Assembly (NCBI GenBank): GCA_015232565.1
Contig: JADFZK010000033.1
Location: 1 to 36,099 of the forward strand
Direction of reading: 5' to 3'
From: Candidatus Omnitrophota bacterium
GTDB taxonomy: Bacteria > Omnitrophota > Gorgyraeia > Zapsychrales > Fredricksoniimonadaceae
DNA: 36,099 nucleotides
How positions within the stretch are numbered: the stretch's first letter is position 1; every line of letters begins with the position of its first letter. The notes under the pieces are model-generated. The model did not search any database. It saw only the letters and a program-made list of their open reading frames with translations, and was not told the origin of the DNA. Shown piece by piece: positions 14,429-32,388 of the stretch. The position numbers and the translations under genes are program-made.

Positions 14429-14474
14429 ATATTAAAGTGTCCCGCCTGCCAAAACAATTGAACCTGGGTATAAC
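14429..14474 (-). promoter_or_regulatory. Conserved promoter/operator, copy A (response regulator-entericidin-DUF1328-BON)
   Basis: Plus-strand element CAATTGAACCTGGGTATAAC at 14455-14474 overlaps the -35 box by 3 nt. On the minus strand: TTGTTT (14452-14457), 17-nt spacer, TAATAT (14429-14434). The predicted start near 14422 is 25 nt before the GTG. The 20-mer is identical to copy C. Confidence 0.8.
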
Positions 14475-14562
14475 CATGGATGACGCATAGTCAATCCTCG
14501 ACGTAGAATATGAATAAGCGTTTTCAAGATAGTTGATAAAGATTAAGAATAAGAAGCGGGAA

Positions 14563-15135
14563 TCAAGGCTGGCGGGAGAGTTTGCGCAGCTCGTATTCTA
14601 CGTATCCGGAGAGGATCTCGGCCACTTTAGCGGGAGGCTGAACCACGAAATAATGCGAGATGATCGCATGCGCAATTTCATGGCCCAGCACTTCCTTAGT
14701 AAAATGTTCGGCGCTGATATAAATCGTGTTCATTTCATAAACATAAAACGATGGCGCCTCCACTTCACGATCGAGCACTACCCGGGCAACGCTCTTAAGA
14801 TGAGCATCATTACGGCAGATCTTAAGCATACAACGCAGACTGTAAAGATTCATGTCCAAAGTCGCAGCGATACGGCTATAGAGGGCATCCAGGACCACCG
14901 GCAGATTGTCACCTTTTATGCCCGGCTCGTTAACCAAAAGAGCTTCCCCAAGCCCGACATCCAGACTTTGGAACAAAGCCGTCAAATCGACCTGTGGATC
15001 AGAATAAATAAGAAAATGGGCACTTTCGAGCTTTTGACCCGTAGGGAAAGAATCGTCTGCCGCGGCCGCCAGGGACGCGGCAGACCAAACACAAAAGAAG
15101 AATACAACTATCCTGGTAAAGTGCATTCGGCGCAT
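14563..15135 (-). CDS. Exported HExxH putative metalloprotease, last gene of the TPS operon
   Basis: The 190-aa protein has a signal peptide (hydrophobic IVVFFFCVWSAASLAAA, cleavage near residue 26) and a zincin motif, GHEIAHAI, with His152, Glu153 and His156. A helix rich in acids follows (AEILSGYVEYE, 172-182), where a gluzincin would place its third ligand. Two cysteines (102 and 107) could form a disulfide. I recognise no named family; secreted HExxH proteins of this size are known from environmental bacteria. It starts at ATG 15135, directly after the stop of the HAMP gene, so it belongs to the tpsBA operon. It could process or trim the exported TpsA protein (inference). Confidence 0.7.
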   Translation of the reverse strand: MRRMHFTRIVVFFFCVWSAASLAAAADDSFPTGQKLESAHFLIYSDPQVDLTALFQSLDVGLGEALLVNEPGIKGDNLPVVLDALYSRIAATLDMNLYSLRCMLKICRNDAHLKSVARVVLDREVEAPSFYVYEMNTIYISAEHFTKEVLGHEIAHAIISHYFVVQPPAKVAEILSGYVEYELRKLSRQP

Positions 15136-15681
15136 TTAGGTTTTAAAGAACCCGATATTACTGGCTATTACCTGGATATCCTTGTCGAATACATTGCCTT
15201 CTTTATTTTTGAAGGTGGCAATACTGGCCTTGGTCAGATTGATCTGCTGGCGTACCGCAACGATCATAGCATTCATTTCGACAGCCAGGTCTTGTAATTG
15301 ATCATAATCACGAATATGGACATCCCGGGAAAAATCACCTTCCTTAAGGCCCTGAATGACACTTCTAAAATGATACAAAGGCCCGGCGATCTTATGCGAG
15401 AACAACAAAGTCACCACTATAGTGGCAAGACCGACTATGACCATTACTATAAGCCCGGTCTGAACCAGAACCGGAAAAAGAAAATCCCCGGTCGGCCGTA
15501 CCATTACCTGCGAGTTTACAATAGCTACAGTGGTAGAAGCCTTACCCCAAAAATAGAGTATGATTATGGTCAACACCCCGCTAAAAACCACCAAAAGACA
15601 GAACTGAATAATAAACCTGGACTGAAAATCTTTGTTAATAAAATAGTTCCGGCGCTGATCGCGCGCTTTTATATCCGCCAT
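15136..15681 (-). CDS. Two-helix inner-membrane HAMP-domain protein
   Basis: The 181-aa protein has transmembrane helices at about 24-44 (FCLLVVFSGVLTIIILYFW) and 72-95 (GLIVMVIVGLATIVVTLLF). A short periplasmic segment lies between them, and a HAMP domain follows (HKIAGPLYHFRSVIQGLKEGDF to about 150). There is no kinase, cyclase or methyl-accepting output domain, so it transmits or scaffolds rather than catalyses. A TTG further upstream overlaps the chaperone gene; ATG 15681 has a perfect GGAGG 5 nt before it and is preferred. Homologous two-helix HAMP proteins are annotated only as HAMP or methyl-accepting-like. It lies within the TPS operon. Confidence 0.75.
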   Translation of the reverse strand: MADIKARDQRRNYFINKDFQSRFIIQFCLLVVFSGVLTIIILYFWGKASTTVAIVNSQVMVRPTGDFLFPVLVQTGLIVMVIVGLATIVVTLLFSHKIAGPLYHFRSVIQGLKEGDFSRDVHIRDYDQLQDLAVEMNAMIVAVRQQINLTKASIATFKNKEGNVFDKDIQVIASNIGFFKT

Positions 15682-15695
15682 TATTTCCTCCGGGT

Positions 15696-16271
15696 TCAAC
15701 CAGCATTCTTATTCTTCTTTATATCATTCGCAATCGGATAAGCGCTATTTACCTCAATATTAGCTTCATTATAGATACGCGTTACCCATTGTTCCATGGC
15801 TTTATTCTCCTCGGCACGATTCAGCGACCATTTGATCTGCGCATACATCTGGTCGTAAGTCTTATTAGCCTTGCCGGCCGTGGATAATTTCTTGTACTCC
15901 GCCTCAATGGCGGCATCCGAGACCATTACCGAGCTGGCAATTTCCCGGTCTTTCTGATCGATCGCTCTTTGCAGCAGGGACTGCTCCCAGAAACGCTCGA
16001 CCATCAACAGGAACTCCTGGTCCTTATCCAACCCTTTAGCATGAGCGTCCTGCAGGATCAATTTACGCCTCACCAGAGAAGATAGAAAATCTTTCCTGGC
16101 TTCCTGGGTATCCACAGCCGCAAAAGCGGAATTCTTAAAGTCACGCTCGAAGCCTTCCGCAGTAATGGCATAGTTATTGATCCTAACCAGATAAGGCTTT
16201 TGACGGTCTTTAAGCAGAAAACCTGCCGCAACCAATGCCAGTATAACTGAGCAGCCAATAATCATTTTCAT
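15696..16271 (-). CDS. SurA N-terminal-like periplasmic chaperone
   Basis: The 191-aa protein has an N-terminal membrane anchor or signal (MKMIIGCSVILALVAAGFLL). Its helical domain resembles the SurA/PrsA/SurA_N_3 N-terminal domain: VRINNYAITAEGFERDF, RKDFLSSLVRRKLILQDAHAKGLDKDQEFLLMVERFWEQSLLQRAI (key features: FL..LV.RKLI...A...GL). A parvulin PPIase domain is absent. SurA-type chaperones guard unfolded outer-membrane proteins and TPS partners in the periplasm. It begins one base after the tpsA stop, which supports a role in handling TpsA or TpsB. Confidence 0.75.
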   Translation of the reverse strand: MKMIIGCSVILALVAAGFLLKDRQKPYLVRINNYAITAEGFERDFKNSAFAAVDTQEARKDFLSSLVRRKLILQDAHAKGLDKDQEFLLMVERFWEQSLLQRAIDQKDREIASSVMVSDAAIEAEYKKLSTAGKANKTYDQMYAQIKWSLNRAEENKAMEQWVTRIYNEANIEVNSAYPIANDIKKNKNAG

Positions 16272-16272
16272 G

Positions 16273-19200
16273 TTATTTGCTCTTTCTTTGATCCTGGCTC
16301 CCGGATTGATAATACAACGGGAATGAATTCTGACTCTTCAGATCAATATTCCGGTCAATAAATTCATATGCCTGGCTATCCAAAGCAATCCCGTCGAAAG
16401 CGCTGGCGTCCGCCACCGTTAAAGGATGATAGAAATATACCCCGGTAGTGGCGACACGATCCATTGATACCGTACGGAAAGCCGGATCGTATATTGTGCG
16501 TAAACTCGTATTCATCGACAACTGCTGTTGCATCAACGAAAGATCAATTGGCGGAGTTACCACCACCAGGCCGGGATCAGGTGCAACCACCTCAGGCACC
16601 GGCACCCGAACGGGGACCTTGGGCCAGATCTCGGTATTGTTAACAAACACATACCCGGAAGGATCTCCAGCGAATTCGCCGTCTGCCAGGTCATTTGAAC
16701 GTGTACCAGGATCTATTTTATAAGCTTCCCCAACCACACCTTCCAACGTTCCACTCACCGGCATTTCCCCGGCACTACCAGCGGCCAAACTGTCTCTTCC
16801 CCCAGCGGCCAGATACAGATCCTTCGTTACATTGATATTCAGAGGCTTGTACGGTATCCAACTGCCAATAACATGGCCAGCTGTCAAATTGGCGTCTCCG
16901 CCTGAAGTAACATGAGGACCAGTTCCTGTTCCCAGGATCGATCCATTAACCGCCTCCAGAGACAAGTCACCGGCAGAATTGATATTGGCCACACTCAAAT
17001 CACCGGATAAAGCCTTTAACTTTACATGATCAGCGGCGCCACCACCCGAGCTGATATTCTGCGCGGCAATAGCATCCGCCGAAATTATATCGATCAAGCC
17101 CTGATTAGTGCTTACTCCGTTCAAACCAACCGCTTTGGCTTGCTCAAGATAAATATCCCCGATATTCCGGGAACGAGCCGAAATATCATTTACATCGGTA
17201 TTGATCCTGTTCGCCAATGCCCCAACACCACCCGTAGACGTGGAAGATACCTCAGCATAATACGAACCGGAAACGCCATCGGTGGCCGGATCAAGCCATT
17301 GTGTTACTGCGCCGGTTGAAGCCGGAACATTCGCCGCCACCTTTTGCCACGCCACATCAGTCAACACTCCCGGTCGAAAATATATATTGTACCCGGAAGC
17401 GCCTGGCAAATTATTGATAGCCAACATCTGGTGTCCGTCCACAACGGAAGTGTTAATATCAATTCCCAGTGTAAGAAATGCACCCAAAGCACTGCCAATG
17501 ATACCAGAAGCCAGAGTTAATTGATCCGCAGTCACCAGGCTATCGGCATCTTCATCAGTAATGTTACCAGCGGCATCCAGCAAAACATCGCCCAGACCAG
17601 CCGCCGTTACTTTACCTACTTCAATGTCACCATAAACAGTCCTTAGACTGATGCCATCCTTTTGGGTCCCGCCATAAGTAGAAATATCCATGGCATTGAT
17701 CCGGCCGCCAGCAATTATGTCGATCAAACCGTTCATATTGCGCATGTCATTGATTGTAACGGCTGTAGCCTGATTAATATAAATATCACCAACTCCCTTT
17801 GATATCCCTGACAGATGATTCACATTTGTATTAATACGATTAGCAGCCGTACCAATATCGTTGCCGGCAGATAACCATAATCGGTTGGCAGTTATCATGC
17901 TATCGCGGTCATTGTCCGTAATACTTCCTGAGGCATCCAAAGAAACGTTCCCAAAACCCGCCGCCTTGACCACCCCGACCTCAATATTCTTCGCGTTCTC
18001 CGCAGTAGTCCTTAAATACACATCATCCCCAAACGCTCCGCCGTTATTTATGACCGACCGGGCATTAAAGCCGCGGGTATTAGTGATCTCGATCTTGCCA
18101 TGGCCGGCATTGTAAGCAGTGACCTTGTCGGCTGACACAAGTATCGGTGCGGTAACGCCGATCCCGTTCTCAGCAGTAAAGTACACATCTTTGGCATTTA
18201 TATTCTTGCCCAGATCCGCCATAGAATTGATTATTTGATCCTCGGCGTGAACATCAACATCACCAGATCCAGCATCAACCAAAGCCGAAAGATCAATAAC
18301 GGATCCTTCAAGAGTAACTTTGCCTCCATTAGTCTTGATCCCGGCGCCATTACCCATATAGATATTCCCCGGTTCACCCCGGCCATTACCTTTATTAGCG
18401 AACAGATTTACCGCGCCGCCCTGGGTAACGATCGAACTATCATTCAAATATATATTCCGGCCGGCTTTCAAAGTAAAAACCTCGGTATCAAAAAATTGCA
18501 AATTCAATTCCTTGTCGCTTAAAGCAAAATTAATATCATTAGTAGCCTCAATTATCAAATCCATACCACCCATATTCTGGTCTGAAAGTATCTCGAAGAA
18601 TCCCTGATCATCACCGATCGTATAATCCCACGGGTCCAAATATAAGATGCCATTCCTGCCGCCCAGCCCATTAGCGCGATAACTGCCATGCTCCATATTC
18701 AGCCTGGGCGCGCTCAACTCAATTAATCCGCCGTCGGCGTCCTTTTCGCTCGCACTAACATCCAGCAATCCGGTATTCGATACTAATGAATTCTCTTCCG
18801 GAGCTATCAATACGATCTCACCTTTTCTGCCGACCAGACTGCGCGCTTCAATTATGCCTTCGTTATTAACCGCGTTCTTGAATATTCCGTCCAAAACCTT
18901 AGCTGTCAGTAACACCTTACCGCCATTGGCCGTGATCCGTCCGGTGTTCTTGACCGCCGAGTCCTTATTGGCCAGATTCTGGGAAGTCTTTTTATCTATA
19001 ACGACCGCAACCACGCCTTGTGGATCCAAACTAAGCGTTATGGCTTCACCGGAAGCCAGGATCACACTCCCTAAATTGGCCTCGATCACACCGCTATTTT
19101 CAACCGTAGAACCCAATAACACCACAAAACCACCCGGAGTAGATATATAGCCCCGGTTAACCACACTTCCCCCTTTTCCCAGGAAAGTGTACCGACCAGC

Positions 19201-19626
19201 CAAAAAGTCGCTTTCGTTAAGATCCAGTGTCGACGCTACCAGCCCGGCCGCGTTCACTGATGACCCCTGAGCAAACAGGATGCCATTATGATTGATCAGG
19301 AAAATCTGGCCATTAGGCGCGTTGATCGCTCCAAAGATATTCGAAGGATCAGTACCAATAACTGTATTTATAAAAGTAAACGGAGCGTTCCCGTTGAAAT
19401 TCACCGCATTATTCTTCCCGACCGAGAAACTGTCATAATCGGCCCTGTTTTGTGGAACAGTAACATTAACGTTCAATATCCCGGGCTGGGATACATAATC
19501 GAACTTGGCATCACCCAGGGTGGCTACCGCGCCCTGCGGCAAAACATTTTGCGCGTGTATCTCCAACGGATACATTAGAAATGCCGCGAGCACTAAAATA
19601 GAAATCGATCTTGATGGCTTTCTCAT
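16273..19626 (-). CDS. TpsA: filamentous-haemagglutinin-family secreted exoprotein
   Basis: The 1117-aa protein is the exported partner of a two-partner secretion system. It has a signal peptide (1-26) and then the TPS secretion domain (about 27-260). Family signatures include VLPQGAVATLGDAKF, FNGNAPFTFINTVIGTDPSNIFGAI and the motif NHNGILF at 112-118, where most relatives have NPNG. A beta-helix rich region follows, with at least three related modules (roughly residues 545-945: DIYxxQAxAV, GLIDII, xxGDIxVGKVxAAGLGDVLLDAAGNIxD). A block of about 95 residues interrupts the second module. A Pro/Val-rich linker (VPVRVPVPEVVAP) precedes a C-terminal tail with no recognised anchor. AAGGGG precedes the ATG. 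It follows tpsB by 10 nt. Confidence 0.9.
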   Translation of the reverse strand: MRKPSRSISILVLAAFLMYPLEIHAQNVLPQGAVATLGDAKFDYVSQPGILNVNVTVPQNRADYDSFSVGKNNAVNFNGNAPFTFINTVIGTDPSNIFGAINAPNGQIFLINHNGILFAQGSSVNAAGLVASTLDLNESDFLAGRYTFLGKGGSVVNRGYISTPGGFVVLLGSTVENSGVIEANLGSVILASGEAITLSLDPQGVVAVVIDKKTSQNLANKDSAVKNTGRITANGGKVLLTAKVLDGIFKNAVNNEGIIEARSLVGRKGEIVLIAPEENSLVSNTGLLDVSASEKDADGGLIELSAPRLNMEHGSYRANGLGGRNGILYLDPWDYTIGDDQGFFEILSDQNMGGMDLIIEATNDINFALSDKELNLQFFDTEVFTLKAGRNIYLNDSSIVTQGGAVNLFANKGNGRGEPGNIYMGNGAGIKTNGGKVTLEGSVIDLSALVDAGSGDVDVHAEDQIINSMADLGKNINAKDVYFTAENGIGVTAPILVSADKVTAYNAGHGKIEITNTRGFNARSVINNGGAFGDDVYLRTTAENAKNIEVGVVKAAGFGNVSLDASGSITDNDRDSMITANRLWLSAGNDIGTAANRINTNVNHLSGISKGVGDIYINQATAVTINDMRNMNGLIDIIAGGRINAMDISTYGGTQKDGISLRTVYGDIEVGKVTAAGLGDVLLDAAGNITDEDADSLVTADQLTLASGIIGSALGAFLTLGIDINTSVVDGHQMLAINNLPGASGYNIYFRPGVLTDVAWQKVAANVPASTGAVTQWLDPATDGVSGSYYAEVSSTSTGGVGALANRINTDVNDISARSRNIGDIYLEQAKAVGLNGVSTNQGLIDIISADAIAAQNISSGGGAADHVKLKALSGDLSVANINSAGDLSLEAVNGSILGTGTGPHVTSGGDANLTAGHVIGSWIPYKPLNINVTKDLYLAAGGRDSLAAGSAGEMPVSGTLEGVVGEAYKIDPGTRSNDLADGEFAGDPSGYVFVNNTEIWPKVPVRVPVPEVVAPDPGLVVVTPPIDLSLMQQQLSMNTSLRTIYDPAFRTVSMDRVATTGVYFYHPLTVADASAFDGIALDSQAYEFIDRNIDLKSQNSFPLYYQSGSQDQRKSK

Positions 19627-19636
19627 ATATTTCCCC

Positions 19637-21391
19637 TTAGAATTTTACGGCAACTTCAACCCAGGGTTGAACATTGCGGTGTTTAGTATCTGTAGACTGC
19701 GGCCCACCCAGTGGATAACCAAACTCAGCTTTTACAGAAATACGATTGGTGATATTAAATCGTGCTCCCAGACCACAACCTTTTATAGTCCGGCCTTTGC
19801 TTTCATCGAGCTGACGATCGCTCATCCGTACCGTAGCCCAGTCGTAGAACATCACAAAACGTGCGGTGTCATACCATTTCGAGTTAGTGAACGGTACTGT
19901 CCAGCTCCGTGGGATAAAGTAATATGGCAAAACGAGTTCCACGGCCGAATACAAACCCCGGTCGCCGGCATAAGCCGCGGGAGCATACCCGCGCACACTA
20001 TAAGGACCGCCAACCTGGAATTCTTCCGCCGCTGTAAGCGTACTGTTGGTATACTGGGCAGAATTCTTGAACAATAACGCCGCCGATAACGGCAATGGCT
20101 GGGCACGATAAAGGTTAAACACGCCTTTTAAGAACTTTCCGCCCGATCCTGTACGGCTGGCACGCGGATCCTTATCACTTAACCCGCCCCACATATCGGG
20201 AATGCCATTGTCCAGTTCAGCCGTAAACAAAGTCCGTCCCAAGAAGTCTTTCTTATCCACATCCAGGCCGATCTTGGCCACCCGACTGTCATCGCGGGAT
20301 GTTTCCCGGGACTGCAGATAACTCTTGATCGATTTATAATCAAACCCCAGGTTCGCCCGCACATCCAGCGTTTCATTGGAGATCAAAGCCTGATTCACAA
20401 AGGCTCCCAGGACTGTTGACTTACCAATTGATTCGGCCGCCAGAAATTCACTGCCGAGCTTTGACCTGGCAACGGAACCGGTCAACCCGATATTGGTGGT
20501 TTTTGTTAACGGAAACAGATACCGCCCGCTTTTGTAATTTGCCAACTCGCTATCCGCGGCCACCATATATTGCAAGAACAACTGATCGTCAGAACCGGTC
20601 AGATTATTGTGCTCCAAAGTAAAGAAATTCAGATTTCTTCCTGCATAACGTGACCCATAATTATTAAAAGTGTACCCGGCATGTACCGGCAGGCGATCTT
20701 TGGCTTCTATAATAATATCGGTCCCACCCTGAACCTTGCCCGGGGCCAGAACGACTTTAGCGGATCGGTCGGGCTTTTCATTGATCGCAACCAGCGATTT
20801 TTGTAATTCAGCATAATTAAACGGTTCTCCCGGCTTTAATCTTAATTTCTCTTCATATATCCGGGTTTTAAAATATTTGTTCCCGGTTATGCTGATGTTA
20901 CCCACCGTGCTTTCCACTACCGTAATTAAAAGCACGCCATCCTGCTTTATAGTCTGCCTGGGGATAAACGCACGTGCGGTAACATAACCTTTTGCCCGAT
21001 AGGCATCAGTTATCAGATCCGCCGCTTTCTGCATTTCAGCGAAAGAGATCTGTTTATTCTCAAATTCACCAGTTATCCTGGCGATATCGCTATCCGTAAG
21101 AGCACGTACACCTTCAACCACGATCCGGCTTATAAAAACCTTCTCACCATGATCAACCCCGATCACTGCGGTGGTCTTTTCTTTGGTCAGATTCTTTCCT
21201 GTATTATCAAGGATCTTGCTCTCCAGAGCTTTACTTTGATCAATATCACTCTGCAGTTTCTGAATCCCTCCCGCTGTTTGCGCCGCGGGCACATCACCAG
21301 AAGCCGCACGTACTTCGCTCACGATCAGAAATGTTCCTGACATGACCAGCAAAACACCATAGAAACGCCACCTTGCCCATAAGCTTCTCAT
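19637..21391 (-). CDS. TpsB: ShlB/FhaC/HecB-family outer-membrane transporter
   Basis: The 584-aa protein exports its TpsA partner through a 16-strand outer-membrane barrel. It has a signal peptide (residues 1-30) and a linker helix region with basic and acidic residues (40-75). Two POTRA domains follow: KVFISRIVVEGVRALTDSDI to about 160, and GNISITGNKYFKTRIYEEKLRLKPGEPFNYAELQKSL to about 235. The ShlB barrel then ends with the C-terminal aromatic VAVKF. The conserved L6 loop motif is present as GGPYSVRGY. AGGGGAG precedes ATG 21391. It is the first gene of the operon under promoter copy B. Confidence 0.93.
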   Translation of the reverse strand: MRSLWARWRFYGVLLVMSGTFLIVSEVRAASGDVPAAQTAGGIQKLQSDIDQSKALESKILDNTGKNLTKEKTTAVIGVDHGEKVFISRIVVEGVRALTDSDIARITGEFENKQISFAEMQKAADLITDAYRAKGYVTARAFIPRQTIKQDGVLLITVVESTVGNISITGNKYFKTRIYEEKLRLKPGEPFNYAELQKSLVAINEKPDRSAKVVLAPGKVQGGTDIIIEAKDRLPVHAGYTFNNYGSRYAGRNLNFFTLEHNNLTGSDDQLFLQYMVAADSELANYKSGRYLFPLTKTTNIGLTGSVARSKLGSEFLAAESIGKSTVLGAFVNQALISNETLDVRANLGFDYKSIKSYLQSRETSRDDSRVAKIGLDVDKKDFLGRTLFTAELDNGIPDMWGGLSDKDPRASRTGSGGKFLKGVFNLYRAQPLPLSAALLFKNSAQYTNSTLTAAEEFQVGGPYSVRGYAPAAYAGDRGLYSAVELVLPYYFIPRSWTVPFTNSKWYDTARFVMFYDWATVRMSDRQLDESKGRTIKGCGLGARFNITNRISVKAEFGYPLGGPQSTDTKHRNVQPWVEVAVKF

Positions 21392-21462: not shown

Positions 21463-21507
21463 ATTGTACTTTGTAATCAAAAACAAACAATTGTACCCGG
21501 GTATAAT
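21463..21507 (-). promoter_or_regulatory. Conserved promoter/operator, copy B (TPS operon)
   Basis: Plus-strand element CAATTGTACCCGGGTATAAT at 21488-21507. On the minus strand: TTGTTT (21485-21490), 16-nt spacer, TACAAT (21463-21468). The predicted start near 21456 is about 65 nt before the tpsB ATG. The phasing of element to -35 is the same as in the other copies. Confidence 0.8.
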
Positions 21508-21529: not shown

Positions 21530-22405
21530 CTAAACAGCCGACTTCTTTTTGTACATCAAAACATCCGCCCCCCTTAAGAGTTCCTCGATCGTTTGCGGCG
21601 AGGCCGGATCGTAGTACATGATCCCGACACTAAAAGTTAATTTATGCCCCAGGTCGACGTTGTAGCGGGATCTGCGCATGTTTTCGCTTAATCTTTTGCT
21701 TAAGGCATTTAGATCTTCGGCCCTGGCCTCCAGCGCCAATACCGCGAACTCATCCCCTCCCACCCGGCTTATCACATCTGACTCCCGAAAAGTCTTTCTG
21801 AGAACTTCCGCTATGGCGACCAAAGCCCGGTCACCTTCTTCATGGCCCAAGGCGTCGTTGATCTCCTTCATATTATCCAGATCGGCATAGATCAGGATCA
21901 GCCCCTTCTTGGTTCGCAGGGATAACTTAAGCAAATGGTTAGCATAGGTAAGAAAGCCCCGGCGATTGTAAAGTCCGGTAAGTTCATCAATAAGGGCCAA
22001 CTCCCGCATAATGGCTTCGGCTTTCTTCAAGCTTTCAAACTGCCTGATCATGGGCGTGTAAAAAAATGCGTAAAGAACCGGTGATAAACAAACAATCAGC
22101 AAAACCGAACCGATCAATGGCATATCCCGCATTTGCAGGCTTGGAAACCATACAAACAAGAAATCCAATATTAGACCGCAAACCAGAATAGTTAACGTCA
22201 GCAACAAAATGAGCCGTACCGGTGTATATTTACGGTCGAAATTATCCAAAACTGGATTCTTTACCATGATCGCCACTTCGGGATCGGGTATATTTACAAG
22301 CGGCGATGGGACCTTACCAACTCCACCGGCCCGCGAGTTAGCCGCCCGGCGATACAAGGTTGGCGCAAGACGCAATTGTAAATACTTAAGGACATCAATT
22401 TTCAC
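21530..22405 (-). CDS. Membrane diguanylate cyclase (GGDEF domain)
   Basis: The 291-aa protein makes the second messenger cyclic di-GMP. It has two transmembrane helices (about 65-88 and 97-118) and a C-terminal GGDEF domain (about 135-290). Motifs are LTGLYNRRGFL, YADLDNMKEIND with a metal Asp, the catalytic GGDEF itself in SRVGGDEFAVLA, and the inhibitory I-site RESD located five residues before it. It is therefore probably active and product-inhibited. The start is GTG 22405, overlapping the small upstream gene by 11 nt; ATG at about 22267 is a less likely alternative. Cyclic di-GMP commonly controls surface adhesins, and the TPS operon next door shares the same promoter type. Confidence 0.92.
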   Translation of the reverse strand: MKIDVLKYLQLRLAPTLYRRAANSRAGGVGKVPSPLVNIPDPEVAIMVKNPVLDNFDRKYTPVRLILLLTLTILVCGLILDFLFVWFPSLQMRDMPLIGSVLLIVCLSPVLYAFFYTPMIRQFESLKKAEAIMRELALIDELTGLYNRRGFLTYANHLLKLSLRTKKGLILIYADLDNMKEINDALGHEEGDRALVAIAEVLRKTFRESDVISRVGGDEFAVLALEARAEDLNALSKRLSENMRRSRYNVDLGHKLTFSVGIMYYDPASPQTIEELLRGADVLMYKKKSAV

Positions 22406-22595
22406 GAGAATACTTTCGGGCAGTATTCTTTCCCGCCAAACGATAAAGGATCTTTATCCTTTGCCAAAGGTCACTCCAGCAATCGAGGTCCTGATCTCCA
22501 GCTATGCTATTGATCTGGTTTCTGGGCAACAAGAACATGGCATCGTTCTTGGAAATCTCACTCTGACGGAACTTTTCTTCTTTAATGGTTAACAT
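22395..22595 (-). CDS. Small hypothetical protein coupled to the diguanylate cyclase
   Basis: The 66-aa frame runs from ATG 22595 (GGGAGA 4 nt upstream) to TGA 22395, overlapping the GTG of the GGDEF gene by 11 nt. The sequence (MLTIKEEKFRQSEISKND..., two Trp in CWSDLWQRI) is charged and mostly helical, with no signal or membrane segment. I do not recognise a family. The start matches the spacing from promoter copy C (60 nt from the element), and the overlap suggests it controls translation of the cyclase. Confidence 0.55.
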   Translation of the reverse strand: MLTIKEEKFRQSEISKNDAMFLLPRNQINSIAGDQDLDCWSDLWQRIKILYRLAGKNTARKYSREN

Positions 22596-22629
22596 ACGCT
22601 CTCCCGGGAAAAGGTTGATCAGGAAACGT

Positions 22630-22675
22630 ATTCTAGAAGGCAGGAGAAAAAGAAACAATTGAACCTGGGTATAAC
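22630..22675 (-). promoter_or_regulatory. Conserved promoter/operator, copy C (small protein + diguanylate cyclase)
   Basis: Plus-strand element CAATTGAACCTGGGTATAAC at 22656-22675. On the minus strand: TTGTTT (22653-22658), 17-nt spacer, TAGAAT (22630-22635). It lies in the 47-nt gap between the FixJ-type regulator gene and the small gene. Confidence 0.8.
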
Positions 22676-22705: not shown

Positions 22706-23326
22706 TCAGGAAGGAACCAGGCCCGCTTTTTGGGCGAAATGAATAAGCTCGGTAACAGTTTTGGCCTGCATTTTCTGCATAACTCGTCCACGATGGACCT
22801 TGATAGTCTGCAGGGCCGTGCCACGCCGGGAAGCGATCTGCTTGTTCATCAGCCCCTGCGCCACAAAATGGAAAACTTCCAGCTCGCGCGGAGAAAGCGT
22901 GCTAATACGCCGTTTGATCTGATCCACTTCCGCACCAGACCGGTTTTGCACCTTGCTTTTTGCTATGGCCCGTTCAATAGCATTCAACAGGTCTTGATCA
23001 ATGAACGGTTTGGGCAGGAAATCCACCGCGCCACCTTTCATAGCCTTAACACCCATTGGAATATCCCCGTAACCAGTAATAAAAACGATTGGGATATCCA
23101 GCTGACGCTCGCACATAATGTCCTGAAGCGCGGGGCCATTCAGCTCCGGTAAACGCACATCCAGTAGAAGGCACGCGGTCTGACGGGGATGCTTAAAAGC
23201 CAAAAACGCTTCGGCAGAAGAAAAAGCTGCCACTTTGAAACCATGACTATGCAACAACAAAGTGAGCGCCCTTTGTATTGAGGGGTCGTCGTCGACCACA
23301 TATATTAGAGCCTTGCTTTTATTCAT
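22706..23326 (-). CDS. FixJ/TodT-family response regulator (REC + LuxR-type HTH)
   Basis: The 206-aa regulator has a REC domain (residues 5-120: VVDDDPS pocket, phosphoacceptor Asp56 in CLLLDVRLPELNG, Thr in FITGYGD, Lys in FLPKPF) and a C-terminal LuxR/NarL-type helix-turn-helix (about 142-205: LSPRELEVFHFVAQGLMNKQIA, then TIKVHRGRVMQKM recognition helix). GDIPMGVKAMKGGAVDFLPKPF is characteristic of the FixJ subfamily, which pairs with FixL-like kinases. It is the last gene of the kinase / CheY-like / FixJ-like set. NarL/FixJ-type HTHs often bind inverted TACCC-like half-sites, so it is a candidate ligand of the conserved TACCCGGGTA element (inference). Confidence 0.92.
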   Translation of the reverse strand: MNKSKALIYVVDDDPSIQRALTLLLHSHGFKVAAFSSAEAFLAFKHPRQTACLLLDVRLPELNGPALQDIMCERQLDIPIVFITGYGDIPMGVKAMKGGAVDFLPKPFIDQDLLNAIERAIAKSKVQNRSGAEVDQIKRRISTLSPRELEVFHFVAQGLMNKQIASRRGTALQTIKVHRGRVMQKMQAKTVTELIHFAQKAGLVPS

Positions 23327-23372
23327 TTTACATTTCCCAATCCTGAATCTTCAGCTCAAACGATATTTACAG

Positions 23373-23762
23373 TCATGCACTTACCAACAAAGCATCTTCG
23401 CAGGCTGAGTTAATAAGATCCACCAGAACCTGTCCATCAACCGGCTTCTTTAAAAAACCTACTGCACCAACTTTAAACGCCCGCTCAATGGCAATATCCG
23501 GCTTTTCGGCAGAAATAAAGATCACCGGACGCTTCGATCCGGATTCCACCAACTGTTTCTGCGCCGTCCAACCGTCAATTCCCGGCATATGAATATCGAT
23601 CAATAAACAACCGGGAACATCATTAGACACGGCCTGGAAGAAACTGATCGCTGAAGAAAACGTTCGCACCGCAAACCCGAAGGTCAAAAGCAGGATACTC
23701 AACGCGCGGCAGACCGACTCATCATCATCAATAATAAAGACCTGCTTGATCTCCAGAGACAT
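23373..23762 (-). CDS. Stand-alone CheY-like response regulator
   Basis: The 129-aa REC-only protein has IIDDDES, phosphoacceptor Asp56 (CLLIDIHMPGIDGW), Ser in FISAEK and Lys in FLKKP. It is clearly paralogous to the REC at 14016-14397 (shared [10 protein letters not shown], TFGF, MPGxDGW, QKxLxxSGSKR, GAVGFLxKP). ATG 23762 is chosen over 23789 because GAGGAG lies 8 nt upstream of it. Unlike its paralogue it ends normally just past the domain. It lies between the sensor kinase and the FixJ-type regulator, where it may act as an intermediate or phosphate sink. Confidence 0.9.
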   Translation of the reverse strand: MSLEIKQVFIIDDDESVCRALSILLLTFGFAVRTFSSAISFFQAVSNDVPGCLLIDIHMPGIDGWTAQKQLVESGSKRPVIFISAEKPDIAIERAFKVGAVGFLKKPVDGQVLVDLINSACEDALLVSA

Positions 23763-23826
23763 ATCGCCATACTCCTCATTAAATATCATTAACGTAAACT
23801 GCCAATAAATATACAGGGTTGAGATA

Positions 23827-23856
23827 CTATTGATTACTGGCTCGGCAAGTCAATAG
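23827..23856. repeat. Small inverted repeat between kinase and CheY-like gene
   Basis: CTATTGA (23827-23833) and TCAATAG (23850-23856) form a 7-bp stem around a 16-nt loop, in the 111-nt gap upstream of the CheY-like gene. It could be an attenuator or operator; evidence is weak. Confidence 0.3.
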
Positions 23857-23873
23857 GGCCAAGATGCTATTAA

Positions 23874-25100
23874 TTATTTCTGAATTATCGCTTCAACATA
23901 TACTGGCAAAGTAAAATAAGAAGTTGCTCCACGATCAGGATTGTTGGCGACCTCTAGCAGACCGCCATGCGCCTCAATGATGGAACGGCTAATTGACAAT
24001 CCCATACCCAAGCCGTCGACTTTACTGGTAAAGAAATGCGTAAACAAGCGCGGTAAATCTTCCGTGCGCACACCGGATCCGGAGTCCTTCACGGACACCC
24101 TGATCATACCCGGTTCTTGTAAAACTGCACTAATAGTTATTTCACGAATATCTTTAACCGGTTCGATAGCTTCAAAACTGTTACTAATAAGGTTCAGCAA
24201 CACTTGTTTAATTTGTATCCGGTCTACACACACTAATGGCAGATCCAAAGCGATTGAGGTCTTTAAAACTATATGCCGTACCGTAAGATCAGTGGCGATC
24301 AAGGCAATGGTTTGGCCAATAAGTTCTTGAATACAAAGCGGCGTGGTTTCCGGACGAGTTTTCTTTAAAAGAGAACGCAAGCGCCGGATAACCTCACTGG
24401 CACGTTGATCATCATCTACAATAAATTGCAGGATCTCGCGCACCTTTGGCTCGCGGTCACCGAGCAAGCGCTGGGAAGCTTGCGCATAAGAAAGGATCGC
24501 AGTTAACGGCTGGCTGATCTCGTGCGCCAGCGATGAAACAAACTCGGCGAGCATTCCCACCCTGGTAACATGTAAAAGATCCTCACGCTGAACTTTAAGC
24601 TCCTGCTCTCTTTGCCTTAGCAAAGTAACATCAGTCTGGATCCCAACATAATGAGTAACCGCACCGCTAGCATCCCGTACGGGCGTAATACGCAGCATAT
24701 TCCAGTATTTATCCCCATTCTTGCTAAAATTCAGCATTTCGCCATGAAAAGAGCGGCCCTGCACAATAGTATGCCGTATCTCTTCAACGACTCGTGGATC
24801 TGCCTCGGCACCGTAGAGCAAAAAATAATTCTTGCCAATTATCTCCTTGTTACTATGGCCAGTCATGTCCTGAAAAGCCGGATTGGCATAAGTTACCGGA
24901 AAGAACGGTTTCTGGGCGTCGATAATAAATATACCATCCGCAACCGATTCCATTGCCTTGGTACGAATAATAAATTGCTCGTCGGACTTGCTCTGCTGTT
25001 CGACTGCCCGCTTCAACCGGGATCGTAAACACCCCTTTTCCGCACAATTTTTGCGACTGCGCGGCGTTTCTGGCACCTTAATAGGCTTCTGTTCTTTCAT
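23874..25100 (-). CDS. PAS/LOV-like sensor histidine kinase (FixL/DctB-type, soluble)
   Basis: The 408-aa kinase has a basic N-terminus, one PAS domain at about 45-160, a coiled linker, a HisKA domain with His193 in SLAHEISQPLTAI (FixL-like HExxQPL), and an ATPase domain (N box NLISNSFEAI, G1 KDSGSGV, F box FTHFFTSK, G2 GLGMGLSIS). No transmembrane helix is seen, so it is cytoplasmic. The PAS is very like photoreceptor LOV domains (YANPAFQDMTGHSNKEIIGKN, ADPRVVEEIR, LNFSKNGDKYWN, THYVGIQTDVT) but has Tyr92 where LOV has its flavin-bonding Cys. ATG 25100 (GGGGA upstream) is preferred to TTG 25115. It is probably the partner of the two downstream regulators. Confidence 0.88.
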   Translation of the reverse strand: MKEQKPIKVPETPRSRKNCAEKGCLRSRLKRAVEQQSKSDEQFIIRTKAMESVADGIFIIDAQKPFFPVTYANPAFQDMTGHSNKEIIGKNYFLLYGAEADPRVVEEIRHTIVQGRSFHGEMLNFSKNGDKYWNMLRITPVRDASGAVTHYVGIQTDVTLLRQREQELKVQREDLLHVTRVGMLAEFVSSLAHEISQPLTAILSYAQASQRLLGDREPKVREILQFIVDDDQRASEVIRRLRSLLKKTRPETTPLCIQELIGQTIALIATDLTVRHIVLKTSIALDLPLVCVDRIQIKQVLLNLISNSFEAIEPVKDIREITISAVLQEPGMIRVSVKDSGSGVRTEDLPRLFTHFFTSKVDGLGMGLSISRSIIEAHGGLLEVANNPDRGATSYFTLPVYVEAIIQK

Positions 25101-25204
25101 ATCATCCCCGAACAATATTTATCTCACAAGGCATTCATTATCCTCCCGACAACAAGATAATGATACGAATTATTTAATACCCCCGGTAACTTGCAAGAAC
25201 CGAC

Positions 25205-25836: not shown

Positions 25837-25862
25837 ATTTCCTTACCATTCTTAATTGCGTT

Positions 25863-25908
25863 ATTTTAAAGAATAATGATAATCACTGCAATTATACCCG
25901 GGTATAAT
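25863..25908 (-). promoter_or_regulatory. Conserved promoter/operator, copy D (small membrane protein + lipoprotein)
   Basis: Plus-strand element CAATTATACCCGGGTATAAT at 25889-25908, containing a perfect 18-bp palindrome (ATTATACCCGGGTATAAT). On the minus strand: TTGCAG (25886-25891), 17-nt spacer, TAAAAT (25863-25868). It is the most symmetrical copy and shows the operator is a dyad. Confidence 0.8.
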
Positions 25909-25923
25909 GCCCAAGAATTCTGA

Positions 25924-27207: not shown

Positions 27208-28718
27208 AATGAAACCTTTCCAATATCAACAGATGCTTTAAATGATTCTGACTCAGAAATATCAACCTCACTCTTTAATCTAATTAACGCTTTGCGGGCA
27301 GACATGCATATGGCTTCATAAGAATCTGCCGCCCCCATAGCCAGCCCCTGCCGCTCCAGACCCTCAACATTCAGCGGCTTACCAAATTTTAACCGTATGG
27401 GACCACAACGCGGATATCTGGCCGTACTTGGCCAGGCTGTATGCGCCCCCTTGATCGCTACCGGCACCAGCATGGCACCAGTCTCCTTTGCTAATACTCC
27501 AAAACCTTTCTTGAATTCAGCGATCTCACCGCTGGCCGTGCGTAACCCTTCCGGGAAAAAACACAAACCCTTACCGTGCTGTAATACATAGAAGCTGCTG
27601 CGTAAAGCTTCCAGAAAGTGGGTTGAGAAATCAAACGGAATGAACCGGCCCATTTTGATAAGATTCCTTAAGACCGGATTACGAACAAATGGCCGGAAGA
27701 AATAGGGGCCAAAAACAAAATAAAACAGCTGAAATACCGGGCGCCGAGGTAAGCAGGCGGCTATTGCCGGCCCATCAAGAAAACTGGTATGGTTACCATA
27801 CAGAATATAAGCGCCTTCCTTAGGCACATTCTCTTCGCCTTCAGCTTTGATATCAAAAAAGACCTTAAAGATCAGGCAATCAATACCGGTTAAAATTATC
27901 CGGAACAACCAGGCAAAAAAACCGGTGCTTAATTCAAGCAAGGCCAATGTTTCTTTCTCTGGTGATACTGCCAGATGATCTTTCCAATAGTGCGGTCCTA
28001 AAGACGCTCGCTGATCCCAAAGCGGAATAATATCAGCCTTTTTTAAAGCTTCGGTCATTTCCTGGATCAACCGTCGCACACTAAAAGCCCGGGCTACTGC
28101 TTCTACATCAATTTCGGCTTTAAAAACCTCCTCCAAAGCGGAACCCAACTCTATGCGCCCCAGCGAATCGATCCCCAGATCAAGTTCCAACGAATCTTCA
28201 AGAGTGATCGGTCGATTGATCCGACTTTGACCTTGTAAACATTGAAAGATCTTTTGGCCGACTTCCGATAAAAGCAAAGTTTTATCATCTGCGGAAAGCT
28301 GGCCAGTTACCGGAAGAGCGCCTTCGATGCCTTCGATCACCCGGGGCTCATAGATCTTCTTCACAGCTGACCTTTGCAACTTGCCAAAAATATTATGCGG
28401 CAAATCCTCCAACGCAATCGTAAAGCCCTTGAGCCGTTTATAAAGAGGCAGGGTCTGGGCGGCATTGTCAAAACGCTCCTTCAGCACATCCCGCAAATTG
28501 ACTTCGCCAAATTCCCGGAACAGCTCCAGGTCCGGCTGAATTATAGCCCACAACAATTTCGATCTTTGCACTCCGCGCATCCCGGAAACAATAAAGACGC
28601 ACATTTCCTTAACCGGCGCAAAACTGCTGTACAGTCCCTCGATCTCGTCGGGGTAGATCTTCTCACCGGAACTTAAGGTAAATGAAGCCCGCGAGCCCAA
28701 CAATAATGCGGCTGTCAT
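27204..28718 (-). CDS. N-terminally truncated adenylate-forming enzyme fused to ACP and PlsC acyltransferase domains
   Basis: The 504-aa protein begins at the hinge of an ANL (acyl-CoA/acyl-ACP synthetase) enzyme. LLLGSRASFTLSSGEKIYPDEIEG (residues 5-28) is the A8 region, followed by the small lid domain to about 125 with the catalytic Lys in LPHNIFGKLQR. Then comes an acyl carrier protein domain (about 145-235; Ser in LGIDSLGRIEL for phosphopantetheine) and a PlsC-type acyltransferase (about 300-470; NHTSFLD catalytic HX4D, and FPEGLRT). The roughly 400-residue adenylation core is missing. Start and stop overlap the neighbours by 4 nt each, so the truncation sits inside an intact coupled operon. 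It probably transfers acyl chains to a membrane glycolipid (inference). Confidence 0.85.
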   Translation of the reverse strand: MTAALLLGSRASFTLSSGEKIYPDEIEGLYSSFAPVKEMCVFIVSGMRGVQRSKLLWAIIQPDLELFREFGEVNLRDVLKERFDNAAQTLPLYKRLKGFTIALEDLPHNIFGKLQRSAVKKIYEPRVIEGIEGALPVTGQLSADDKTLLLSEVGQKIFQCLQGQSRINRPITLEDSLELDLGIDSLGRIELGSALEEVFKAEIDVEAVARAFSVRRLIQEMTEALKKADIIPLWDQRASLGPHYWKDHLAVSPEKETLALLELSTGFFAWLFRIILTGIDCLIFKVFFDIKAEGEENVPKEGAYILYGNHTSFLDGPAIAACLPRRPVFQLFYFVFGPYFFRPFVRNPVLRNLIKMGRFIPFDFSTHFLEALRSSFYVLQHGKGLCFFPEGLRTASGEIAEFKKGFGVLAKETGAMLVPVAIKGAHTAWPSTARYPRCGPIRLKFGKPLNVEGLERQGLAMGAADSYEAICMSARKALIRLKSEVDISESESFKASVDIGKVSL

Positions 28719-31378
28719 ACACCACTTTCCGGAACTAATGTGCAGTTCGCGGTACCCAAAGCCACCCTGACCTTCCTAAAACCCGGCAAGTGAATATCAA
28801 TATCCGGCTCCCGCGTAAACCACTGGCCGCTCCACTCAACCAATACCCTCGCTCCTTGAGGCGTGATCTTAATATTTATATCGCCAAAAGCCGTTGGAGC
28901 GGCGCCAAAGGACATGACTTCTTGTTGCTCCAGCCAAAGCATCGGGATCCCGGAACATAAAACCAGACGGTCGGATTCTTCCCGGACAAAACAATTGCGT
29001 ATCATTAGCACCCATTCAGCCGCGGCCCAAACATGCTGGCCGTCTCCCATACAGCCACCGCCAGTACGCGGATGGATCGACTCCGGCCACTGACCGGTAG
29101 AAGACGCCCAATTTGCCACCGCAGTCATTAAACCAAAGTACCGGGGATCACCAGCTCGCAAAAGAACTTGCGCCAAATGCAAAGTTAAATACGGATTAAT
29201 GCCCGAATGCGTCATGTCATGAAAGAACCCGCCCTGAACCAGACATTTCCGCAACAAATATTCAGCGGTATCCATAATTCGATCATCATTTTGACCAAAA
29301 ACCTGCAAAGGATAACTGGCCACCAGGGAACCGATAGCGCCCGAATCCATCCGACGGTATGGCGAAGCCGGGAGAGCGCGTCTTTTCAGACGCTTTTCTA
29401 CTGTCTTCGTACTTTGCTCTATACAACACGCCAAACCAATGGACTTTTTCTTAAAATGTTCTGCCTGTTCCTTATCTTCATAACGGTCAGCCAGGAAGGC
29501 CGCGGCATTCAGGCCGGCCACACCCCAGAAATCATCCCAGTAATAAAAGTCATTTGGCCCCAGATGCTCAGCACTAAAACCCGAAGGCAATAGTCCCGCA
29601 TGGGGAGAATCCGGTTTTAGCGCCAGGCGTTTGTTGGCTATCCACACTCCCGCTTTGTAGATCGAATCTTTCCACTCTTTGGGTGGCAACAGCCCGGTCT
29701 TCTCACAATACTGACGCATTATCCACAAAGCCTCGCCGTTCGAATCCCACTCACCTTCCTGGGAAAGAAAATATCCCTGAGCAGTCTGACGAGCCTGGAA
29801 ACAATCCAAAGCCCGGCGCACCCGGCTTTTTAGGCCAACACATAGTAAAGCCTGCAGAATAAATGCCGCGTCACGAAACCAAAACCGCCGATAAATATAT
29901 GGCCCCGGGTATACTTCCTTGGGCGAATGCAGGACCATAGTATGAAGGGCAGAATCATAAAGGAACTGAAAATGCTTGTTGGGAACTTGCAGTTTACATA
30001 CGCCCTGCAAACTTTCTTTCCAGGCCGACCGCGCCAGGGCCAGGTCACCAGGGGAAGGCCCTTTTACGTTCACCTTAGTTAAAGGTACCGATATAACTAT
30101 CGCCTCCGTCTTCCCGGGAGCTAGCACATAAACCGCGGCGGCTGTTGCCAGGCCGACATTACAAGTAACCGCCAGCTCTTTATCCGGCGAACTCAAACGG
30201 CTGTAAACATCACCCCTTTGATAATCAGAGAACACCCAGCGTGAAGGCTTTTTGTCCAGGTAAACAGACAATTCTTTATTGACCACCCACCCTGACTCTT
30301 CTGCCAGCAGATCGATATTATTTATAAAACTGATCCCTTCCGGATTATACGGCCGCAGAACGACCACCAACTGCGCGCCGGTATGGGCAAACCCCGTTAC
30401 GATTATCCGACAAACCGGTGCCAGGGCAGAACCTGTTACTTGCGCTTTTAAAACGATACTACCTTGGCCCGTTCCAGTTATTTCCGTACTTACCCCCAAG
30501 TCCTCACCCAGAATGATCTTTTGAACTACATTCAGGCACCGGGATGGAATAAGCGGCTCGCCGACATCAGGAATAAGCCAGAAATCAATGGACCAACTAT
30601 CATAGAACGGAGTCACCAGGCCGCGCGGATCAACCAAAGGAAACTCGGCACAATCCGGGACCCCCAGCGCGGTCCAGTTACGATGAGTCAGATTGATCTG
30701 GGTCAAAGAAAATGACCGCGGGATAAAAGCCGGATTTCGGGGGTCGTATTGACACTCCACCCAAAAAGGCCAGATCCAATCCAGATTATGCTGTATCGCC
30801 AGGCTGTTTACCAGGCCGCGAGCATGCAGGACTACTCCGGAACGCACCAATTCAAGAGGAGCCACTACTTCAGAAGGCTGGGCAAAGTTCTGCAAGGCCG
30901 CGAGGATCTTGTCGGGATCCAGGAACCCGTGCCGGCGGGCGGCATCCTTAACCAGCAATCTCCACGGGAACCACTTCCACCACACAAAGGAAACGCCTTC
31001 CTGCAAGAGCACCCGAAATACCCACCACTTATAGCAAACAAAGGTAAACGCGCCGGTCAAGGCCGAGGCCATTACCAGATCCACCAACACCGCTCCCGGC
31101 CAAACAATTAAGAGACGCTGATTTACCAGCACATTGATACACAACGCCAGCACATTAATAAACAAATACCGGCCAACCTCGGCATAAGAAGGTTGGTTAC
31201 AGGAGAATATCCAGTACTTGTTAAAAATATACCCGACTATTCCGGCGCAAATGAACGAGATCCCTTTGGCCAGGCTGAAAGGCATAAAACGGATCAAAAG
31301 AAAATAGATGCCAAAATCGGTTGCTCCGGTAATCAGCCCTGCAATATAAAAACGGATCATCTCTTTTTTAGTGTTCAT
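28715..31378 (-). CDS. GtrA-family membrane domain fused to a glycogen-debranching-like (alpha/alpha)6 glycosidase
   Basis: The 887-aa protein has an N-terminal GtrA-type domain with four transmembrane helices (residues 8-125: IRFYIAGLITGATDFGIYFLL, ISFICAGIVGYIFNKYWIF, YLFINVLALCINVLVNQ, ALTGAFTFVCYKWWVF). A 150-residue linker, a beta-rich domain (about 250-460) and a C-terminal six-hairpin barrel follow (about 480-860: YIYRRFWFRDAAFILQALL, GEWDSNGEALWIMRQYCEKTG, YYWDDFWGVAGLNAAA, WPESIHPRTGGGCMGDGQHVW). The barrel resembles amylo-1,6-glucosidases and GH15/GH63-type enzymes. GtrA proteins are thought to carry polyprenyl-phosphate sugars across the membrane. The stop overlaps the next gene by 4 nt. 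The fusion is unusual; the substrate cannot be told. Confidence 0.8.
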   Translation of the reverse strand: MNTKKEMIRFYIAGLITGATDFGIYFLLIRFMPFSLAKGISFICAGIVGYIFNKYWIFSCNQPSYAEVGRYLFINVLALCINVLVNQRLLIVWPGAVLVDLVMASALTGAFTFVCYKWWVFRVLLQEGVSFVWWKWFPWRLLVKDAARRHGFLDPDKILAALQNFAQPSEVVAPLELVRSGVVLHARGLVNSLAIQHNLDWIWPFWVECQYDPRNPAFIPRSFSLTQINLTHRNWTALGVPDCAEFPLVDPRGLVTPFYDSWSIDFWLIPDVGEPLIPSRCLNVVQKIILGEDLGVSTEITGTGQGSIVLKAQVTGSALAPVCRIIVTGFAHTGAQLVVVLRPYNPEGISFINNIDLLAEESGWVVNKELSVYLDKKPSRWVFSDYQRGDVYSRLSSPDKELAVTCNVGLATAAAVYVLAPGKTEAIVISVPLTKVNVKGPSPGDLALARSAWKESLQGVCKLQVPNKHFQFLYDSALHTMVLHSPKEVYPGPYIYRRFWFRDAAFILQALLCVGLKSRVRRALDCFQARQTAQGYFLSQEGEWDSNGEALWIMRQYCEKTGLLPPKEWKDSIYKAGVWIANKRLALKPDSPHAGLLPSGFSAEHLGPNDFYYWDDFWGVAGLNAAAFLADRYEDKEQAEHFKKKSIGLACCIEQSTKTVEKRLKRRALPASPYRRMDSGAIGSLVASYPLQVFGQNDDRIMDTAEYLLRKCLVQGGFFHDMTHSGINPYLTLHLAQVLLRAGDPRYFGLMTAVANWASSTGQWPESIHPRTGGGCMGDGQHVWAAAEWVLMIRNCFVREESDRLVLCSGIPMLWLEQQEVMSFGAAPTAFGDINIKITPQGARVLVEWSGQWFTREPDIDIHLPGFRKVRVALGTANCTLVPESGV

Positions 31379-31430
31379 GGGTTTCTTTTAATTATGTTTT
31401 TAGAAAACCTGATCGCAATCGTGAATTCTA

Positions 31431-31601
31431 TTAACGAGCATTCCGGTCAAGAACTGCCCGGTCAGAAATTCGCGTTTCATGCTTGTAATGTTCATCCTCA
31501 GATTGCCGCGCCTGACGGGTGTACATGCAACCACCCGACAGCAAGGCAACGGCAATTCCCGCCACAATTAACACTGCCAACTTTGATTGATTAATGCGCA
31601 T
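31431..31601 (-). CDS. Small lipoprotein (56 aa)
   Basis: ATG 31599-31601 (AAAGGAAG about 5 nt upstream) opens MRINQSKLAVLIVAGIAVALLSGGC, a lipoprotein signal with lipid-accepting Cys25. A short, highly charged mature part follows (MYTRQARQSEDEHYKHETRISDR...), ending at TAA 31431. No family is recognised. It lies 28 nt after the exported protein at 31630-32286 and is probably cotranscribed from promoter copy E. Confidence 0.65.
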   Translation of the reverse strand: MRINQSKLAVLIVAGIAVALLSGGCMYTRQARQSEDEHYKHETRISDRAVLDRNAR

Positions 31602-31629
31602 AATTCTTCCTTTTCCATACCAACACGAT

Positions 31630-32286
31630 CTACTGGGTAGTAGTTACCACTGTGGTCGTGGTGGTACCTTTAACGATCGGGGCATAAAGTGTTACATATT
31701 GCGCCAGCTGTTTACGGTCTTTCAGTATAAAATCAACTTTCACTGTATCGCCCGGTTTAACCAATAACTGTACCGGTTGACGACTGGGACTTTGCATGAC
31801 CACCAGTTTGTCAGGCTCAAAGACAAAATATGACATTGTCCGACTATCCGCCATATCGCTTTTAGCTCTTTCTTCCAGCACCAAAGTACCTGCCGCGTCG
31901 ATGGTCTTGACCTCGCCAAAAGCCTGCTGCCAGGCGGCTTCCTTATTACGGGTAAGCATAACTTTCTGCACGACCATTTCTTCCTTACCCTCGATCACAT
32001 CCACTTTAACCTGCTGGCCAGGCCAAAGGTCGGCAACCGTCAGCATTTTCTGGTCCGCAGGATCGGTTACCCGGGTATCATTCTCAGTTATCCGGTATTC
32101 CAGAATATCTCCCTTGTCTTGCAGCATGTCACTCCTTAACTGCATACGGCCATCTTTAAGATCAACCCAGGTGATCTCTCCTGACTCACGCCGCACACTC
32201 ACCGGATCCGCGGCTTGCGCATACACCCCCGAGCACAAGATCACCGCAGTAACACCCAAAACAAAACCAGTATGATTTTTCTTCAT
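31630..32286 (-). CDS. Exported protein of unknown function with a Thr-rich tail
   Basis: The 218-aa protein has a signal peptide (MKKNHTGFVLGVTAVILCSGVYAQA, cleavage near 25). Its mature part has two similar halves (SGEITWVDLKDGRMQLRS... and FGEVKTIDAAGTLVLEE...), each leading to a WPGQQVKVDVI or KPGDTVKVDFI strand. This suggests two small beta-barrel (OB-like) domains. The end is rich in Thr and Val (GTTTTTVVTTTQ). ATG 32286 has AAGGAA 9 nt upstream; the frame is open to 32337 but those codons lie in the leader. I do not recognise a family. Promoter copy E drives it, together with the small lipoprotein. Confidence 0.7.
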   Translation of the reverse strand: MKKNHTGFVLGVTAVILCSGVYAQAADPVSVRRESGEITWVDLKDGRMQLRSDMLQDKGDILEYRITENDTRVTDPADQKMLTVADLWPGQQVKVDVIEGKEEMVVQKVMLTRNKEAAWQQAFGEVKTIDAAGTLVLEERAKSDMADSRTMSYFVFEPDKLVVMQSPSRQPVQLLVKPGDTVKVDFILKDRKQLAQYVTLYAPIVKGTTTTTVVTTTQ

Positions 32287-32342
32287 GGTACACTTTCCTT
32301 TCGGTAGATATGAATATGGCTTTACCAGACTGCACAATGGCT

Positions 32343-32388
32343 ATTGTATGGGGGGATATTCAATGAAACAATTGTACCGGGGTATAAC
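32343..32388 (-). promoter_or_regulatory. Conserved promoter/operator, copy E (exported protein + small lipoprotein)
   Basis: Plus-strand element CAATTGTACCGGGGTATAAC at 32369-32388. On the minus strand: TTGTTT (32366-32371), 17-nt spacer, TACAAT (32343-32348). The start near 32336 gives a 50-nt leader. One central base differs from the other copies (G for C or T at 32379). Confidence 0.8.

Follow-up and report, generated by a model that had tools for sequence, protein, structure and literature searches.

A conserved operator–promoter regulon in part of the Omnitrophota and its candidate FixJ-type response regulator

The two-component systems StyS/StyR and TodS/TodT serve styrene and toluene breakdown in Pseudomonas, and FixL/FixJ serves nitrogen fixation in rhizobia. 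StyR-like regulators recognise the palindrome ATAAACN4GTTTAT, StyR being thought to contact DNA via K175, V176 and H179 (PMC5874301), and the site from which StyR activates lies at about -40 (PMC2442086). Here we describe a related arrangement in a Candidatus Omnitrophota bacterium (GenBank assembly GCA_015232565.1, contig JADFZK010000033.1, positions 1 to 36,099; this whole stretch of 36,099 nucleotides is referred to as the window). Five operator–promoters in the window surround an operon at 22706–25115 that encodes a PAS-domain histidine kinase, a single-domain receiver protein and a FixJ-type response regulator (RR). We consider it probable (roughly 0.8) that the five elements are operators of this one two-component system encoded among them, with a dimer of the RR binding at each and acting as a class II activator of an envelope and stress regulon.

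The elements read, on the minus strand, (G/A)TTATACCNNGGT(A/T)(C/T)AATTG, that is (G/A)TTATACC-NN-GGT(A/T)(C/T)AATTG, and each lies upstream of minus-strand genes (Table 1). A search of the window with the 20-mer, allowing up to 3 mismatches, returned four matches as against none in 100 shuffles; the fifth element, at 25889, is the perfect palindrome ATTATACCCGGGTATAAT. The TTG of the -35 hexamer shares the last 3 nt of the element in all five cases (TTGTTT in four, TTGCAG in one), and the transcription start is predicted 7 nt beyond each -10, which places the dyad centre at about -43.5 where the spacing is 17 nt and at -42.5 where it is 16 nt. Sequence search thus recovers all five elements in the positions and orientation given by the original prediction, together with its -35 overlap, -10 hexamers, spacings, starts and dyad centre near -43. 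The 20-bp element that it described is real; within it, the 16-bp dyad TTATACCNNGGTAYAA (TTATACC-NN-GGTAYAA) constitutes the conserved operator, and the trailing TTG belongs to the -35.

The source genome (2.64 Mb, 80 contigs) contains 10 matches to the core TTATACCNNGGTAYAATTG with at most one mismatch and none to the reversed pattern, which yields 2 matches in total in 285 genomes of the phylum. Requiring the motif together with a -10, with up to 3 mismatches, gives at least 11 credible promoters, five of them in the window; the match at C51:7785 is probably not a promoter, as it has no good -10. Among 110 distinct sites, a -10-like TANNNT follows at a spacing of 16 nt in 50 and of 17 nt in 30, with 0–3 occurrences at most other offsets, and a good -10 at 16 or 17 nt is present in 84 of the 105 non-redundant sites, where shuffled downstream sequence gives 6 on average and at most 13. 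The consensus promoter is TTATACCYNGGTACAATTGATT-N16/17-TAnAAT. The match counts against the reversed pattern show that the motif is not a product of chance, and it is present in 11 families. The sites lie mostly outside predicted open reading frames (103 of 110) and upstream of envelope and stress genes with the same phasing.

The motif, fixed in advance, and the RR were searched for in the same 285 genomes. The motif occurs in 21 of 22 RR-positive genomes versus 17 of 263 RR-negative ones (Fisher P = 1.8e-20), and the association persists on stratification by family (P = 1.7e-12; 11 families having RR-positive genomes). The lone RR-positive genome without the motif, G289, carries the most divergent RR (52%), and the RR tree separates it from the motif-bearing RRs, which group in a single clade (support 100/99). 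Two genomes scored RR-negative in which sites are present, G008 and G045, have, next to a site, an RR that is partial or broken. The RR gene of G045 (L143, L144) is split, with two in-frame TGA codons, and the adjacent perfect site persists.

The two are also linked in position. At RR loci of the Omnitrophota type a site follows within about 300 bp of the RR stop codon in 26 of 27 and at about 320 bp in L041, all in the same direction. In the window this is operator 3, about 30 bp beyond the stop codon, and nearly all Omnitrophota relatives have a site at the same place. In at least seven relatives a further site lies some 70–140 bp ahead of the receiver/kinase/RR operon, and in the window operator 4 lies ahead of the lipoprotein gene and the kinase; these placements suggest that the RR operon is autoregulated. 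The target first assigned to operator 4, a membrane peptide and lipoprotein, was correct as to the lipoprotein and incomplete, since the kinase, receiver and RR genes also lie downstream.

Families are intermixed in the RR clade (f38, f4 and f5 group with support 100/99), a hint that the RR system may have been transferred horizontally. Near RR homologues of other phyla (L066–L117), TTATACC-like or ACCNNGGT palindromes were not above a rough chance expectation; similar palindromes, at about that chance level, accompany homologous RRs of Rhizobium and Massilia (L068:5059, CTATACCAAGGTATAG; L101:10677, CTAAACCAAGGTTTAG, 74 bp after its RR).

The original prediction postulated a dimeric regulator and named none; the present data point to the RR at 22706–23326. 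Its N-terminal receiver (PF00072, 4.5e-25) and C-terminal GerE helix-turn-helix (HTH) domain (PF00196, 2.3e-17) place it in the NarL/FixJ family. The best solved relative is StyR (1yio, E = 5e-51), followed by FixJ, both matched over the full length. In named genomes its closest matches are Candidatus Omnitrophota metagenome-assembled genomes, at 60–75% identity, together with a record entitled Candidatus Goldiibacteriota (L063). Motif-bearing RRs have a near-invariant recognition helix, LQTIKVHRxRVMQKMQAK, which differs in L066 and G289, both of which lack the motif. Like ATAAACN4GTTTAT, the operator is laid out 6-N4-6; the two have 4 of 6 half-site letters in common, but the half-site here is TTATAC, so that it departs from the StyR/TodT operator itself. 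The statement that no described motif matches thus stands for the exact letters, which are apparently undescribed, but not for the layout. Taken together, these comparisons make it very probable that the RR binds the operators.

In the mechanism that we propose, the PAS histidine kinase at 23874–25115 would phosphorylate the RR, a dimer of which would bind the dyad near -43, immediately upstream of the -35, and would draw in RNA polymerase by class II activation, in the manner of StyR at its own site. The regulon would extend genome-wide over envelope and general-stress genes and would include the kinase–regulator operon itself, giving positive feedback.

Several observations weigh against this proposal. 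Fifteen genomes have a motif match and no detected RR, several of these being single matches or fragmented genomes, and no site accompanies the frame-broken RR of one Omnitrophota locus (L108). The proposed kinase–RR pairing is drawn from gene order, the kinase adjoining the RR in nearly all relatives. Of the StyR contacts, K175 and V176 are kept and H179 is replaced by G, S, A or C, so that the full StyR/TodT contact set is absent; a kept lysine and valine, a lost histidine and a changed half-site would be the pattern expected of a related regulator with altered specificity. Finally, the -35 (TTGATT/TTGTTT) is fairly good, which leaves room for repression.

Repression by the same RR, which would block polymerase beside the -35 until its phosphorylation state changes, is the strongest alternative and an unlikely one. 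The site touches the -35, and both hexamers are fairly near consensus. The class II activator position is that of operators next to the -35 with centres at about -41 to -44, and repressor sites are usually more variable in position. The dyad centre here is fixed at -42.5/-43.5, with an overlap of only 3 nt and a fixed spacing to the -10, which is the class II position, and StyR is an activator at its site near -40 (PMC2442086). Less probable again is that some other DNA-binding protein reads the motif and that the RR is merely its linked target; because the RR operon carries sites itself, linkage would be expected even then. Yet the co-occurrence of RR and motif holds within families, the RR is the sole strong PF00196 match in the source genome (this HTH family being the one searched), and the motif, laid out like StyR-family operators, is conserved along with the recognition helix.

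It is improbable that the element forms part of a promoter read by an alternative sigma factor. The fixed distance to the -10 and seven untyped Sigma70_r2 matches in the source genome would accord with that, but the element has dyad symmetry, in some cases as a perfect palindrome, and lies upstream of an ordinary TTGATT/TATAAT-like promoter of sigma-70-like appearance, and this fits a housekeeping sigma factor plus a dimeric regulator. On contig C68 (L166, L167), Sigma70_r2 matches lie inside a single open frame about 35,884 aa long, an odd setting for sigma region 2; giant open reading frames have been described from Omnitrophota (PMC10066038). An origin as a dispersed repeat or a mobile element, to which several near-identical copies inside 18 kb might point, is contradicted by conservation limited to the 19-bp core and the promoter hexamers with unconserved flanks, by the fixed phasing and gene-ward direction, by the intergenic placement of the sites and by their spread over families.

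Across genomes, the genes downstream of sites encode receivers, kinases, a 235-aa exported protein, BON proteins, relatives of the 163-aa lipoprotein of the window, DUF1328, DUF3309, MlaE-MlaF-MlaD, Transgly_assoc, HSP70 and GGDEF proteins. The typical stress families seen downstream of sites are Entericidin, DUF1328, BON, CsbD, DUF3309, DUF5670, HSP70 and Transgly_assoc. Nine genomes contain six DUF1328 genes, all of them 0.3–2.4 kb downstream of a site; CsbD is linked to a site in just one of two cases, leaving DUF1328 alone consistently linked. A study of RpoS in Salmonella covers DUF1328 (YtjA), CsbD (YjbJ) and EcnB (PMC5437024), and CsbD and ecnAB belong to an EcfG regulon (PMC7083833). 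Because several target families are thus RpoS or EcfG targets elsewhere, the targets appear to resemble a general or envelope stress regulon. One dimeric regulator over an envelope regulon, as first proposed, is therefore still the best reading, with fixed phasing in more than 100 promoters of many genomes and envelope and stress genes as targets.

Table 1. Operators, regulatory genes and targets in the window, and further promoters of the source genome
Feature	Position	Strand	Details
Operator 1 (GTTATACCCAGGTTCAATTG)	14455..14474	-	-35 TTGTTT sharing last 3 nt; -10 TAATAT 14429-14434, spacing 17; predicted start 14422
Operator 2 (ATTATACCCGGGTACAATTG)	21488..21507	-	-10 TACAAT 21463-21468, spacing 16; predicted start 21456
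Operator 3 (GTTATACCCAGGTTCAATTG)	22656..22675	-	-10 TAGAAT 22630-22635, spacing 17; predicted start 22623
Operator 4 (ATTATACCCGGGTATAATTG, perfect 18-bp palindrome)	25889..25908	-	-35 TTGCAG; -10 TAAAAT 25863-25868, spacing 17; predicted start 25856
Operator 5 (GTTATACCCCGGTACAATTG)	32369..32388	-	-10 TACAAT 32343-32348, spacing 17; predicted start 32336
FixJ-type RR, receiver + LuxR-type HTH	22706..23326	-	Pfam Response_reg, GerE; proposed operator binder
Single-domain receiver protein	23373..23789	-	Pfam Response_reg
PAS-domain histidine kinase	23874..25115	-	Pfam PAS, HisKA, HATPase_c; proposed RR partner
Receiver domain then in-frame entericidin-like lipoprotein	13882..14397	-	Operator 1 target; Pfam Response_reg, Entericidin; GTG start 14397
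DUF1328 membrane protein	13662..13919	-	Operator 1 target; Pfam PF07043
BON-domain (OsmY-like) exported protein	12829..13617	-	Operator 1 target; Pfam BON; NCBIfam OsmY below cut-off
TpsB (19637-21391) and TpsA (16273-19626), two-partner secretion	16273..21391	-	Operator 2 target; Pfam ShlB, POTRA_2, TPS
Small protein ORF and GGDEF diguanylate cyclase	21530..22658	-	Operator 3 target; Pfam GGDEF
Lipoprotein-like protein, 163 aa	25205..25696	-	First long gene of operator-4 transcript
Exported protein without Pfam family	31630..32286	-	Operator 5 target; in many genomes relatives follow a site
Other promoter, source genome	C51		Before DUF2934-DUF3309-CsbD
Other promoters, source genome	C72		Before HSP70 gene and cation ATPase
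Other promoter, source genome	C76		Before dehydrogenase-like gene
Other promoter, source genome	C46		Before DUF5670
Other promoter, source genome	C68		Before lipoprotein-like gene

The unexpected and unusual feature of the regulon is its leaderless start codons. In 35 of the 110 sites (30 of the 105 non-redundant sites, versus a shuffled mean of 0.5 and a maximum of 3) the -10 is followed exactly 6 nt later by an ATG or GTG, at the expected +1; examples are L009, L020, L024, L042, L048, L130, L147 and others. This exact placement of the start codon implies leaderless mRNAs for part of the regulon, and the +1 ATG promoters leave no room for a ribosome-binding site. Long genes opened in this way encode MlaE-type permeases (375 aa), receivers beginning MRTIYIVDDD and a dehydrogenase-like protein; at some loci the +1 ATG opens a short frame only, so not all are gene starts. 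None of the five window promoters belongs to this class. Outside the regulon, crude open reading frame calls in the same DNA revealed no enrichment of TANNNT 6 nt before start codons.

Two further features of the window deserve mention. The receiver and the entericidin-like lipoprotein at 13882–14397 share a single open frame with no intervening stop, and a candidate internal ribosome site, AATAGGAGATAACAGTATG, precedes the entericidin methionine; in some relatives tblastn matches run across the two parts, and in others they are split. Upstream of operator 5, at 32501–35197, a RhuM-family gene and a DUF2442-DUF4160 pair have a mobile or toxin–antitoxin-type appearance.

The open-licence literature yielded nothing relevant on a regulon of this kind, on Omnitrophota response regulators or on the motif letters. 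Overall, the regulon is real and conserved across part of the Omnitrophota, and its candidate FixJ-type regulator is strongly supported by these genome comparisons. As a tentative extension, which we think rather less than even odds, a FixJ-type system and not a stress sigma factor might run the general or envelope stress response in part of the phylum, largely via leaderless mRNAs in which the AUG is the transcription start and operator, promoter and start codon are joined in a single block; regulator and operators might also spread horizontally together. An unisolated candidate phylum gains a regulon with a named candidate regulator, an operator, a promoter layout and a target list, and with them a way of reading stress-response genes from metagenomes. 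With their start codons at +1, such promoters offer a stringent way of testing leaderless translation in a lineage that is so far unstudied.

The closest described systems resemble the present one in different respects. Like StyR and TodT, the Omnitrophota RR joins a receiver to a LuxR-type HTH, and a 6-N4-6 palindromic operator is common to both, with the StyR site at about -40 and the sites here at about -43. The half-site is TTATAC where that of StyR/TodT is ATAAAC, the third contact residue differs, the kinase is a short PAS protein, leaderless starts occur, and the phylum is a different one; the Pseudomonas systems control one catabolic pathway, whereas many envelope and stress operons would be controlled here. 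An operator layout used in aromatic-compound breakdown is thus suggested to serve an envelope and stress programme elsewhere. FixL/FixJ has the same kinase and regulator domain layout, but no fix targets were seen, and the scores fall below the NCBIfam cut-offs (197.5 of 255 bits for the FixJ equivalog, 195.7 of 850 bits for FixL), so that the RR is not FixJ proper. The RpoS regulons of enterics and EcfG regulons of alphaproteobacteria overlap with the present one in target families. They are run by sigma factors, whereas the DNA element shared here is an operator next to an ordinary sigma-70-type promoter, and its occurrence follows that of a response regulator.

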